Shown in pieces: positions 26,473 to 60,759 of a stretch of 64,000 bases of DNA (position 1 is the stretch's first letter; every line of letters begins with the position of its first letter). The notes beneath the pieces were generated by a model. It saw nothing but the letters and a program-made list of their open reading frames with translations. It had not been told where the DNA came from and made no database searches. A program made the position numbers and the translations under genes. This DNA is from Marispirochaeta aestuarii (GTDB lineage: Bacteria > Spirochaetota > Spirochaetia > JC444 > Marispirochaetaceae). The stretch lies in the NCBI RefSeq assembly GCF_002087085.1, contig NZ_MWQY01000020.1, positions 1 to 64,000 of the forward strand. Direction: 5' to 3'.

Positions 26473-26488
26473 CATGAAGGAGTCAAGG

Positions 26489-28207
26489 ATGAGAAAGATC
26501 CGTATTGCATCGACCGTTTGTACTGTAGTTCTGATTGCCCTTCTCGCCTCCTGCGGGAGCGCTGTCTATACGGCAGGCACCTACACCGGAGAGGGAGAAG
26601 GTCACGGCGGAACGATTCGTCTTGAAGTTTCGGTGGACGACAAATCCATTACCGATATCACAATCACTGAGAACCCGGAATCGGATTTCAGTCTTCCCGC
26701 CATCAACAAGCTTATCGATACCGCCATCGAGAAGAACAGCGGTGAAATTGACAGCATCAGCGGCGCAACGGAGACCTCCGCCGGCGTAATCACCGCCATT
26801 CAGGCAGCCCTTGCCAAGGCCCGCACCGGCGAAGCGGCACCCCAGGGGGCAGAAAAAGAGCGCACAGGCGCCCGGGACATCAGCGTGGACGTGGCTGTTG
26901 TCGGTTCCGGCGGAGCGGGGCTCTCCGCGGCCATCGAGGCAAAGAATGCCGGCGCTACCGTGATAATCATTGAAAAGATGGCCGTTGCCGGGGGTAACAC
27001 CAATTACGCCACCGGAGGACTCAACGCCGCTGAAACCAGCTTTCAGAAGGAGCAGGGAATCGAGGATTCGGCGGAGCTCTTCTTTGAAGACACCATGAAG
27101 GGCGGAAAGAACATCAACAATCCCGACCTGGTAAAAGTCCTGACCTCCCGCTCGGCAGACACAGTCGCATGGCTCACCGACCTGGGAGCGGATCTGAGCG
27201 ACGTTGGACGCCTGGGAGGCGCCTCGGTTAACCGCGCCCACCGGCCCAAGGGCGGTAAAGCCGTTGGAGCCCACATTGCGGGTACCCTGCAGAAGGTTGC
27301 CGAAGCCGCAGGCGTCGAAATACTGCTGGATAACAGGGCAGTCGCCCTGGTAAGTCAGAACGGCAGCGTTACCGGAGTAAAGGTCGAATCCCCCGAGGGA
27401 AGCTATACCATAAACGCGAAGGCGGTAATTCTGGCAACCGGCGGTTTCGGCGCCAGCCCCGAAAAGATCGTCCGGTACAAACCCGAACTGGAAGGCTTTG
27501 GCACCACCAACCATCCCGGCGCCACCGGTGATGCCCTGGATCTGGTAAAGGACCTGAATGTCGCCCTGGTGGATATCGAACAGATCCAGACCCATCCCAC
27601 GGTTGTCCCGGTCAAGAACACCATGATCACCGAGGCGGTCCGGGGTAACGGAGCCATCCTGGTCAACCGTGACGGAGTGCGCTTTGTCTCCGAGCTTGAA
27701 ACCCGGGATGTCGTATCCGACGCCGAGCTGGCCCAGAAGGGAGGAACAGCCTTCCTGCTCTTCGACCAGGGCGTACGGGAGTCCCTGGCGGCCATCGAGA
27801 AATACGCCAGGAGCGGACTTCTTACCGAAGGAGCAAGCCTTGAGGAACTGGCGGCAAGCATGGACATTGATGCCACAGTTCTGGCGGAGACAGTTGAAAC
27901 CTACAACTCCTATGTAGCCTCCGGTACGGATGCCGATTTCGGCAGAGCCAGCATGGCCCGGCAGCTGACCCAGGCGCCCTATTACATGGTAGAGGTGGGG
28001 CCCGCGGTCCACCACACCATGGGCGGAATCAAGATCGATACCGAAGCCCGGGTCATCAATAAGGACGGAAAGGCCGTTCCCGGACTCTACGCCGCCGGTG
28101 AGGTTACAGGAGGAGTCCACGGCGCCAACCGTCTCGGCGGCAACGCCATGGCGGACATTACAATCTTCGGACGCATCGCAGGCAAAAGCGCTGCTGAAGG
28201 TAAATAA
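26489..28207 (+). CDS. extracytoplasmic FMN/FAD fumarate-reductase-type lipoprotein
   Basis: From ATG 26489 (AAGGAG at good spacing; an alternative ATG is at 26474) the protein has 572 residues. The lipobox is LLASC (Cys22). Residues about 30-110 are an FMN-binding domain ending DSISGAT (88-94), the ApbE flavinylation motif with Thr94 as likely FMN site. From about 126 comes the FAD fumarate-reductase fold: VVGSGGAGLSAA, TNHPGATGD, EAVRGNGAILV, HHTMGGIKID and HGANRLGGNA, carrying the catalytic His and Arg residues of flavocytochrome c3. Urocanate and methacrylate reductases share this layout, so the acceptor (fumarate or another enoate) is unresolved. It is followed by a CitA/CitB-type system. 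Confidence 0.88.
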   Translation: MRKIRIASTVCTVVLIALLASCGSAVYTAGTYTGEGEGHGGTIRLEVSVDDKSITDITITENPESDFSLPAINKLIDTAIEKNSGEIDSISGATETSAGVITAIQAALAKARTGEAAPQGAEKERTGARDISVDVAVVGSGGAGLSAAIEAKNAGATVIIIEKMAVAGGNTNYATGGLNAAETSFQKEQGIEDSAELFFEDTMKGGKNINNPDLVKVLTSRSADTVAWLTDLGADLSDVGRLGGASVNRAHRPKGGKAVGAHIAGTLQKVAEAAGVEILLDNRAVALVSQNGSVTGVKVESPEGSYTINAKAVILATGGFGASPEKIVRYKPELEGFGTTNHPGATGDALDLVKDLNVALVDIEQIQTHPTVVPVKNTMITEAVRGNGAILVNRDGVRFVSELETRDVVSDAELAQKGGTAFLLFDQGVRESLAAIEKYARSGLLTEGASLEELAASMDIDATVLAETVETYNSYVASGTDADFGRASMARQLTQAPYYMVEVGPAVHHTMGGIKIDTEARVINKDGKAVPGLYAAGEVTGGVHGANRLGGNAMADITIFGRIAGKSAAEGK

Positions 28208-58162: not shown

Positions 58163-58939
58163 TCAGCGTTTTGCTCCTGCAAGGGCCTCTTCCACCAGGG
58201 AATAGAAGGTGTCATAGGAGATGGTTGCTCCGGTGACTGCATCAGGAACTGCAGTTTCCTGGCTCTCCAGGAAGGCCTTCTCTACGGCCTGGGCCTGCTC
58301 GTGCCACTCCCTGGTTGCATTGGAATTGGCCACCATGCCGTATTCCCCGTCCATGGAACGCTGAACCTTGTTGGTTCCGCCGTCTTCGGCCACGGCATCC
58401 CAGTGGGCGGATACCACATACCCGGAAGTTACCGTAAAATCTACAAAGTACTTCCATCCATTATGGAACTCGTCATCCGAAGCGGAGTAGGTACCGTCCT
58501 TGTAGGGACCATAGCCCACAGGACCTTTGGCCAGAGCTTCGGCGGCGAGTTCGTAGAACTCATTGTAGTGTATGGTAGCTCCGCTTATGGCATCGGGCAT
58601 CTCCGTGGAAGGATTTTCCCTGAAATACTCCTCCACCGCAGCGGCCTGAACATGCCAGTCTGCCTGGGCGCCCCCCTGGGCAACCATGGGATAATTACCT
58701 GCTTTGGAAACGGAAACCTTGTCGGGTCCGGCATTGATATTGGAGCCGTTCCACACAACCTCGGTGAACTCTCCGTCCTCAACCTTGAGGGTTACGTTAT
58801 ATTTCCATCCGCTTTTGGGGAATTCCGTCTGCTGGGCAAAGTAGATCCCGTCTTCGTAGCCTGTCCCCTTCGAACTGCAGCTTACAAAAAGAGCGGCAGC
58901 GAGGGCCAGTACAACGGTAATTCTTACAATGTGTTTCAT
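58163..58939 (-). CDS. lipoprotein with two FMN-binding (flavinylation) domains, PplA-like
   Basis: The 258-residue protein starts at 58939 behind GGAGG. A lipoprotein signal ends at LFVSC (Cys21). Two tandem FMN_bind domains follow (about 30-138 and 145-255), each with a GW-KY strand and ending in a flavinylation motif: DAISGAT (Thr122) and DAVTGAT (Thr239), where ApbE would attach FMN. The Listeria extracellular electron-transfer lipoprotein PplA has the same two-FMN design. It should pass electrons on the outer face of the cytoplasmic membrane. No ApbE or Ndh2 gene is visible here. Confidence 0.88.
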   Translation of the reverse strand: MKHIVRITVVLALAAALFVSCSSKGTGYEDGIYFAQQTEFPKSGWKYNVTLKVEDGEFTEVVWNGSNINAGPDKVSVSKAGNYPMVAQGGAQADWHVQAAAVEEYFRENPSTEMPDAISGATIHYNEFYELAAEALAKGPVGYGPYKDGTYSASDDEFHNGWKYFVDFTVTSGYVVSAHWDAVAEDGGTNKVQRSMDGEYGMVANSNATREWHEQAQAVEKAFLESQETAVPDAVTGATISYDTFYSLVEEALAGAKR

Positions 58940-59226
58940 AGAAACCTCCAATCCTCTTATATTGGCCTTTTAATATAGTGTGAATAATATACTATCTTAT
59001 ACCGACTTTGAATATATATTTCAATATATTTAAAGCATATTATAGAGAAAATTCAGCATTATAAAGGTTGAGACTTCTTTATCGCCCACAATATTCACAA
59101 TTTACGATATTTAATCACATTAAATTATTGACAGTATCTTATTTTACGTATACTGTAATCATGTTATATAAATTTTCCTTGATGTTTTGTCCGCACAGAA
59201 CAGAAACAGGGAAAAAGGAGTATTGC
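58940..59226. promoter_or_regulatory. AT-rich divergent control region
   Basis: This 287-base gap between two flavin lipoprotein genes is far richer in A and T than its surroundings. TTGACA (59128-59133) and TACTGT (59151-59156) are 17 apart, reading toward the rightward gene. They overlap an inverted pair ACAGTAT (59131-59137) and ATACTGT (59150-59156). Another inverted pair, TTGAA (59008-59012) and TTCAA (59020-59024), lies on the leftward side. No gene is seen in it. Confidence 0.5.
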
Positions 59227-59829
59227 ATGAAGACTATCCGTTTGATGGCAGGAGCACTGGTTCTGATTATGGTATTGGGCGCCTGCGGGGGCAATGCCGG
59301 GGCCGCAAAAGAGGAAGCCACCGCTGAAGCAGCCGAGCCTGCAAAGGGTATTACCCTGGAAAACGCCTTCTACTATACCCATGTTGACGGGCACAAGAAG
59401 GAGACACAGATTCCCGCGGTTGTTCTTTTCGAGTATGAGCAGCTGAAAACAGTCCGCTACCAGGTGGCATATATTGCCTGTACCTGCAGGGGACCGGAAG
59501 TAAACTACTGGTCCGTGGCGAATGTGGAAATCAATAAATCCAACCTCACCGTAGACCACATCTCCTATCACGAGGATTCCACCGACCATTACGTAGCCGG
59601 GATGTACGGCGACAGTACCGAATCCTGGGACGGTACGCCCGTGCGGGAGCTCTTTGACGGTTTTATCCAGGACAGCATCCTTGGAAAATCGGAAAGCGAG
59701 ATCGATGCCTATGTACCCATGCACGGGGAAGTTGATACCTACACCGGTGCAACAGTTACCCCCAACAACGCAATGCGCATGCTCCAGGGGCTCTTTGAGT
59801 ATCACAAAGAACACTACGGCAGCAACTAG
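59227..59829 (+). CDS. lipoprotein with single flavinylation motif (FMN_bind-like)
   Basis: The 200-residue protein starts at 59227 behind AAGGAG. Its lipobox is VLGAC (Cys20). After an Ala/Glu-rich linker comes a domain of about 150 residues that ends DTYTGATVTPNNAM; Thr176 is the likely FMN attachment site. Before it, the domain has a CTC pair (Cys85, Cys87) not usual in FMN_bind proteins. It is divergent from the two-FMN lipoprotein and 33 bases before the rhodanese lipoprotein gene, so all three probably act together outside the cytoplasm. Confidence 0.78.
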   Translation: MKTIRLMAGALVLIMVLGACGGNAGAAKEEATAEAAEPAKGITLENAFYYTHVDGHKKETQIPAVVLFEYEQLKTVRYQVAYIACTCRGPEVNYWSVANVEINKSNLTVDHISYHEDSTDHYVAGMYGDSTESWDGTPVRELFDGFIQDSILGKSESEIDAYVPMHGEVDTYTGATVTPNNAMRMLQGLFEYHKEHYGSN

Positions 59830-59862
59830 GGTTTCTGCCAAAAAAAATAGAGGAATAGAACT

Positions 59863-60759
59863 ATGATCAAGAAGACGACAATTATTCTGTTAACCTTAAT
59901 GCTGGCTCTCTCCATTGTCTCCTGCGGCAAGTCCGGCGCAGATGCGGGTCTTACGGGAACCGAAGAGATCACCATGGAGAATATCGACCAGTATATCGAC
60001 AAAGACGCCAGATTCATCGATCTGCGGAATTTCGCCGACATGTTCAATGGCGGCTACATCGCCGGTTTCGAGGTAGTGCCCTTTTTCCAGTATCTGGAAG
60101 GCCGCGCCCTTGTCCGGAACAACGGATGGGAGTTCTCCGAGGCTGACGTGGTTGAACCGGCAATCCTGGAGAACATCTTCGGTTCCAAGGAAGATGTAAT
60201 CGTCCTGATGTGCGGTTCCGGAACCCGGGCCGGATACGTAAAGGACGCCCTGAACAGTCTGGGCTACACCAAGGTTATCAATGCCGGAGGGATTCGGGAT
60301 TATAAGGGTGAAAACAAGGTCCTCGGGGACGGCAGCTACGCCGGCCAGATGGTCCTCCCCGCGGAGGTCACCATGGAGAACATCGACCAGTACCTTTACC
60401 GGGACGGAGCCAAATACGTTGATCTGCGCAATGTCGCCGATAAATACGTGGGCGGATACATCGACAGTTTCGAGCTCGTCTCCTTCTTTGAATACCTTGA
60501 AAACAATGCCCTTGTCCGGAACAACGGATGGGAGTTTTCCGAGGCTGACGTGGTTGAACCGGCAATCCTGGAGAACATCTTCGGCTCCAAGGACCGGGAA
60601 GTATTCCTGATGTGCGGCTCCGGAACACGGGCCGGATACGTAAAAGATGCCCTTGAAAGCATCGGTTACACAAACGTGTACAACGTCGGCGGGATTCGGG
60701 ACTATAAGGGAGATCACAAGATCTTCGGCGATGAATCCTTCAGCCTGAACCTTCAGTAG
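59863..60759 (+). CDS. lipoprotein with two rhodanese domains
   Basis: The 298-residue protein has a lipoprotein signal with lipobox SIVSC (Cys21) and two rhodanese-like domains (about 38-160 and 168-290). Both hold an intact active loop CGSGTR (Cys117 and Cys251). The two copies share long identical stretches including the segment from ALVRNNGWEF to IFGSK, a sign of recent duplication. Rhodaneses transfer or carry sulfane sulfur; this one would act outside the cytoplasmic membrane. It follows the FMN lipoprotein gene by 33 bases and is closed by a terminator. Confidence 0.88.
   Translation: MIKKTTIILLTLMLALSIVSCGKSGADAGLTGTEEITMENIDQYIDKDARFIDLRNFADMFNGGYIAGFEVVPFFQYLEGRALVRNNGWEFSEADVVEPAILENIFGSKEDVIVLMCGSGTRAGYVKDALNSLGYTKVINAGGIRDYKGENKVLGDGSYAGQMVLPAEVTMENIDQYLYRDGAKYVDLRNVADKYVGGYIDSFELVSFFEYLENNALVRNNGWEFSEADVVEPAILENIFGSKDREVFLMCGSGTRAGYVKDALESIGYTNVYNVGGIRDYKGDHKIFGDESFSLNLQ
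60106..60592 (+). repeat. internal direct repeat in the rhodanese gene
   Basis: About 85 bases from 60106 recur from 60508 (period 402) with about two differences, both synonymous or nearly so. This is the best-conserved part of the gene duplication that made the two rhodanese domains. Confidence 0.8.

Follow-up and report, generated by a model that had tools for sequence, protein, structure and literature searches.

The genes at positions 58,163 to 60,759 of the DNA analysed here, a 64,000-nucleotide stretch of the Marispirochaeta aestuarii contig NZ_MWQY01000020.1 (hereafter, the window), raise the question of whether flavin and sulfane sulfur chemistry are coupled outside the cytoplasm. 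An initial annotation had proposed that three lipoproteins encoded at this place link flavin electron transfer with sulfane sulfur carriage. We find the three open reading frames, P1, P2 and P3, and in them the features that had suggested this proposal: two flavinylation motifs in P1, one such motif and a Cys-Thr-Cys sequence (CTCR) in P2, and two rhodanese domains with CGSGTR loops in P3. The features are located as follows:

58163..58939, minus strand: P1, PplA-like lipoprotein with two FMN_bind domains (ORF, 258 aa); an accessory, lineage-specific neighbour.
58574..58594, minus strand: first flavinylation motif of P1, DAISGAT (motif match).
58223..58243, minus strand: second flavinylation motif of P1, DAVTGAT (motif match).
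59227..59829, plus strand: P2, lipoprotein with an RnfG/NqrC-like FMN domain (ORF, 200 aa; fold model; 62-row alignment A3); a core component.
59479..59490, plus strand: CTCR motif of P2, residues 85-88 (invariant cysteine pair in the alignment).
59734..59754, plus strand: predicted flavinylation motif of P2, DTYTGAT, residues 170-176 (motif match).
59863..60759, plus strand: P3, lipoprotein with two rhodanese domains (ORF, 298 aa; Pfam Rhodanese); a core component.
60211..60228, plus strand: first rhodanese active-site loop of P3, CGSGTR (motif; its Cys is kept in the main rhodaneses outside Izemoplasma).
60613..60630, plus strand: second rhodanese active-site loop of P3, CGSGTR (motif).

The three genes had been described as divergently arranged. 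This holds for P1, which is divergent from the other two, but P2 and P3 lie on the same strand with 33 bases between them, so that the arrangement is that of P1 against a P2-P3 pair. Read by eye, all three proteins begin with a signal peptide followed by a lipobox-like Cys (Cys20 in P2), and they are predicted to be extracytoplasmic lipoproteins; that they all face outward, as had also been claimed, goes further, as surface exposure cannot be read from a sequence. An Rfam search of the window gave no match.

Whether the three genes form one system depends first of all on P1. This protein scores 36.3 bits with Pfam FMN_bind (cut-off 22) over two stretches and matches PDB 2kzx with an E-value of 4e-24, and two flavinylation motifs appeared in none of 100,000 shuffles of the same composition. 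It resembles PplA of flavin-based extracellular electron transfer in its two FMN_bind stretches, its canonical motifs and a partial match to NF041941, but its score with that model (60.8 bits) is far under the cut-off of 325, so P1 is PplA-like only. Of 148 relatives, 46 have genes for such PplA-like proteins, in most cases with no P2 or P3; these genes adjoin the P2-P3 pair in G000, G002 and G129 only (the window's genus and UBA5339). In the same 148 relatives P2 was found in 12 genomes (one match being weak), with a rhodanese gene adjoining it in nearly all of them; P1 occurs in 6 of 11 P2 carriers and in 40 of 137 other genomes, an enrichment that is not significant (p = 0.10). A P1-P2-P3 unit was consequently rejected as a general system. 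The likeness of P1 to PplA, whose flavinylated form functions in extracellular electron transfer in Listeria (PMC12052999), could also suggest that P1, P2 and P3 are together a branch of general extracellular electron transfer, delivering electrons to metals or other acceptors, with sulfur being incidental. We consider this highly unlikely, as it is the rhodanese and not P1 that is the constant partner. Other flavin carriers are found near P2 elsewhere, a pattern that we noticed and do not offer as a statistic: in several Erysipelotrichia and in rumen Treponema a canonical FMN_bind domain is fused to the N-terminus of P2, two loci (L089 and L092) encode an additional small FMN protein, and a multi-FMN RnfG-like protein is encoded in the Izemoplasma group.

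The constancy of the rhodanese became apparent on a larger scale when we scanned 84,980 species genomes. The scan yielded 102 relatives of P2, and the loci of 80 of them were fetched. These relatives, about one hundred in all, are distributed in Spirochaetota, in Bacillota (the Izemoplasma group, Erysipelotrichia and Clostridia) and in other bacteria. A rhodanese gene adjoins P2 on the same strand, or is fused to it, in 76 of the 80 loci. Two of the four exceptions (L079 and L080) have a contig that starts on the side where close relatives carry the rhodanese, a third (L132) stops at a contig end, and the last (L066) is a true solo copy, the second P2 of G129. Twelve loci encode P2 and the rhodanese as a single polypeptide, and one of these fusions (L130) is over the Pfam cut-offs for both domains. 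The CTCR motif is present in all 80 loci; the scan used two patterns, one of which included the first Cys, so that conservation independent of the search can be claimed only for the second Cys and the Arg. Whole-genome HMM surveys, which are independent of both patterns and have a few genomes in common with the first set, agree with this picture: the fetched locus contained a rhodanese for 34 of 34 matches with CxCR or CTU and for none of the 5 matches that had no such motif. One P2-like protein without CxCR (L189, in G536) has no rhodanese adjoining, and the same genome also holds a normal pair. Carriers of P2 are a minority in their groups: they account for 11 of the 393 genomes of Spirochaetota, for 22 of the 296 from the class to which Holdemania belongs and for 4 of the 391 from that of Proteiniclasticum (at an E-value of 0.001, some of the matches being weak). 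In a midpoint-rooted tree of P2, shown without support values, the rumen Treponema copies are nested among those of Erysipelotrichia and Clostridia, a position suggestive of gene transfer from one phylum to another. The conserved core is thus P2 and P3, with P1 outside the conserved pair. The initial annotation had made its interpretation depend on the genes occurring together in other genomes, and this is what we observe for the pair but not for the set of three.

With a Pfam FMN_bind score of 18.7 bits, P2 itself is under the cut-off of 22, while its homologue at L130 is over it (25.8 bits). Its DTYTGAT sequence fits the described ApbE site, D-x-x-[S/T]-G-A-[S/T] (PMC12052999), as is expected of an exported FMN_bind protein flavinylated by ApbE; in the shuffling analysis that used 100,000 trials for P1, one such motif arose in 0.1% of sequences with the composition of P2. 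In alignment A3 (62 rows) residues C85, C87, R88 and D170 are invariant, as is Val177, and the CxCR sequence of all 62 relatives reads CTCR in 61 and CNCR in one. The fold model of P2 (mean pLDDT 83.3) found its best PDB match with a second structural aligner in RnfG (7zc6_G, Z 9.7, 109 residues, rmsd 2.7), followed among its top matches by RnfG 8rb9_G (Z 8.4) and NqrC 4u9s (Z 6.5). Foldseek alone gave no match with E < 0.001, so the likeness to RnfG/NqrC comes from the second aligner. P2 does not match the curated RnfG model (TIGR01947; score 14.4 bits, cut-off 102), and we do not class it as RnfG, but it may act as an RnfG-like FMN carrier. When the A3 profile was compared with RnfG sequences, the alignment covered the C-terminal part alone (probabilities 15 and 83), from which the position of the CxC pair relative to the flavin cannot be mapped, and the model of the fused L130 protein has a pTM of 0.58, too low for reading its domain arrangement. 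Some homologues carry additional motifs: that of a Sphaerochaetaceae genome (L075) has DDHSGAS and DSHSGAS besides DDYTGAT, and another (L056, 8342-8938) ends in a C-terminal tail bearing a further DAVTGAT.

Genes for ApbE and for possible sources of electrons are found around the pair in part of the loci. The co-occurrence of the three genes with ApbE and RnfC-like genes had been put forward as a check, and for P2 and the rhodanese it came out in favour of the proposal. ApbE genes (family f2, two members of which were confirmed by Pfam) are located in 33 of the 80 P2 loci, and 25 of 26 carrier genomes encode ApbE somewhere, the exception being a genome that is 85% complete. In the Izemoplasma loci, RnfC-like, RnfD and multi-FMN RnfG-like proteins are encoded divergently from the pair, together with an [FeFe]-hydrogenase and a fragment of NuoF type. 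In G504 the genes for RnfG, RnfE and RnfA precede the pair, and genes for selenocysteine (Sec) incorporation follow it, with hydrogenase genes after these on the other strand. The P2-P3 locus of the window has no ApbE or Rnf gene; the same genome encodes its one ApbE on a different contig, and its two Rnf-type operons also lie elsewhere. The ending of the P2 motif varies among the 80 loci, with about 30 canonical GA[S/T], 41 GSS and 9 with neither (by regular expression), and four aligned P2s are clearly without GA[S/T] and GSS. In the alignment the Asp is conserved, and so is the Ser/Thr position that ends the motif. Given the noncanonical endings of many P2s, it is uncertain for some members of the family whether the P2 domain itself is flavinylated.

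A further indication of what the cysteine pair does comes from G504 (locus L186/L193), where the codon for the second Cys of CTCR, Cys87, is an in-frame TGA. The frame of this P2 homologue, which starts at L193:7913, is open past the TGA and contains the GDSS, DSYAGSSV and YH motifs. Directly downstream lie the genes of the Sec machinery, namely tRNA-Sec, selD, selA and selB, and both selA and selB are over their curated cut-offs. The selD gene is open from its start only if a TGA of its own, at SSCGG-TGA-AGK, is read through; SelD proteins that contain Sec are known and have a comparable in-frame TGA. Both TGA readings, in P2 and in selD, presuppose Sec. A stop-to-Trp code (table 4) was considered for the TGA of P2 and rejected: among ten neighbouring genes an internal TGA is found only in selD, and Trp, where present, is encoded by TGG. 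A hairpin, ATAAGCA-GGT-TGCTTAT, with a 7-bp stem and a GGU loop, is located 26 nt past the TGA of P2. One of equal quality arises in 4% of synonymous recodings (P 0.04), and a 7-bp stem was found at the corresponding place in none of 81 Cys homologues. The minimum free energy fold around the TGA has a different stem and is not better than shuffles (z -0.48). SelB is over its cut-off in two of the nine P2 genomes tested, and a second TGA variant of P2, sought in further genome samples, was not found; the variant described here comes from a single genome. From its sequence context, the G504 homologue is a candidate for a new selenoprotein family, and a search of a 2026 review of prokaryotic selenoproteins for flavin proteins, lipoproteins, RnfG and NqrC did not reveal it. 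The exchange of Cys and Sec at one position is the usual mark of a catalytic redox residue. Read as Sec, the TGA at the second Cys of the CxC sequence would mark the pair as redox-active.

The partner of this pair, P3, scores 48.5 bits with Pfam Rhodanese (cut-off 22.2) over two stretches. The two domains are approximately 72% identical to each other, and each has a Cys in a six-residue C-x-x-G-x-R loop, as is characteristic of rhodanese sulfurtransferases. At the loci of Spirochaetota, Erysipelotrichia and Clostridia, the main rhodaneses have retained a Cys loop of six residues that nearly always takes the form C-x-x-G-x-R. In the Izemoplasma group (L076-L090, L110 and L141) the loop is mostly Y[AD]DGC[IVM]R, with the Cys shifted from the first to the fourth position. 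Several Erysipelotrichia and rumen Treponema loci, L094, L105 and L098 among them, encode near the ApbE gene a second rhodanese-like protein in which STAGVE replaces the Cys loop. The shifted Cys of the Izemoplasma group and the additional Cys-less rhodanese of many Erysipelotrichia and Treponema suggest that the role of the rhodanese may differ in some lineages, and that sulfur transfer may not apply in every one. These altered loops, together with the CxU and UxC pairs known in thioredoxin-type redox proteins (table in PMC13188914), are what one would expect if P2 were an extracytoplasmic thiol-disulfide reductant, in which FMN passes electrons through CxC(U) to disulfides or sulfenic acids of envelope proteins and the rhodanese acts as a binding module or partner without carrying sulfur. 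Nevertheless, the retention of the Cys loop by the main rhodaneses of the other three groups and the strict coupling between the presence of CxC and that of the rhodanese make such a function unlikely.

We therefore favour the interpretation that P2 and P3 constitute an extracytoplasmic flavin/thiol sulfur reductase, and give it a probability of about 0.6. It is supported by the conserved pairing and fusion, the invariance of CxC(R), the RnfG-like predicted fold, the linkage to ApbE and Rnf genes, and the TGA beside a complete set of Sec genes. ApbE would attach FMN to Thr176 of P2, an attachment that we infer from the motif, and a membrane source would supply the electrons that reduce it. This source would be in several lineages an Rnf-type complex with its flavinylated subunit, while at the window electrons would probably arrive via other flavin carriers such as P1. 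The FMN, presumably held close to the cysteine pair, would then reduce Cys85-x-Cys87 (Cys-x-Sec in one relative). The catalytic Cys of P3 would be loaded with a persulfide from its presumed substrate, be it polysulfide, thiosulfate or another sulfane sulfur donor, and the attack of the reduced pair on this persulfide would release sulfide. Sequence does not fix the direction of the reaction, and P2 could instead oxidise sulfide or low-molecular-weight thiols, pass a persulfide from the CxC pair to the rhodanese and send the electrons out via flavin carriers, as a form of sulfide detoxification. Sulfide oxidation likewise uses a flavin, a cysteine and a sulfur carrier, as in the chemistry of sulfide:quinone reductases. 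This direction appears rather improbable: the named carriers are mostly of anaerobic lineages and the Rnf and hydrogenase modules adjoining the pair are low-potential electron sources, which favours reduction. More tentatively, and at slightly less than even odds, the reductase interpretation may be extended to a widespread extracytoplasmic system in which electrons from Rnf would pass through covalent FMN and Cys-x-Cys or Cys-x-Sec to rhodanese-held sulfane sulfur, with no molybdenum or heme in the sulfur-reducing step and with a new selenoprotein family among its members.

The proposed reductase has parts in common with several known systems. In Wolinella, a periplasmic rhodanese-family protein, Sud, gives sulfane sulfur to the respiratory polysulfide reductase, which is a molybdenum enzyme. 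The role proposed for P3 is that of such a periplasmic carrier, while the reductase proposed here would be a flavoprotein of small size that contains a CxC pair. RnfG and NqrC provide the best fold matches of P2 and share with it the kind of FMN attachment motif and its location in the C-terminal region; P2 differs from them in being a free lipoprotein, in its CTCR motif and in its rhodanese partner. Like P2 with P3, the enzymes CoADR-RHD and Npsr (PDB 6PFZ and 3ICT) couple a flavoprotein to a rhodanese domain. The Cys of this domain has been proposed to supply the reductase with its sulfur substrates, and Npsr, a cytosolic protein that reduces persulfide, offers a precedent for flavin and rhodanese in such a reaction (PMC7969121). 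However, these are FAD/NADH enzymes of a different fold with bound CoA. P2, an FMN_bind lipoprotein located outside the cytoplasm, has a CxC pair and shows nothing that resembles a site for NADH or CoA; compared with both, its model gives Z-scores of 4-5, a range that the aligner calls common.

We found no published account of the P2-rhodanese pairing in the literature searched, in agreement with the earlier statement that no description of the combination was known. Flavinylation, ApbE and rhodanese did not appear together in that literature, which comprised the main texts of freely available papers. An FMN-binding domain and a rhodanese were mentioned together only in an archaeal genome analysis that is unrelated, judging by its title and abstract. 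The word rhodanese is absent from a 2024 survey of flavinylation, and the passages of a 2021 survey that contain sulfur terms have nothing on rhodanese-like sulfur transfer. Flavinylated envelope proteins have been surveyed in depth, yet such a pairing did not appear in the surveys searched; the pair also adds a candidate selenoprotein family. A constant gene pair for flavin and sulfane sulfur would make envelope sulfur reduction by small flavoproteins directly testable, and might supply a genetic basis for unexplained thiosulfate effects; thiosulfate stimulates the growth of an Izemoplasma isolate (PMC8397711). The initial interpretation is, taken as a whole, partly supported. The linkage of flavin with sulfane sulfur that it drew extends well beyond the window, through the adjoining or fused genes, the ApbE genes, the Rnf genes of Izemoplasma and G504 and the candidate Sec in the CxC sequence.

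Finally, the window contains another likely substrate of ApbE at positions 26474-28207, an exported protein of 577 aa with an FMN_bind domain (DSISGAT) followed by an apparent FAD-dependent domain of the fumarate/urocanate-reductase type.
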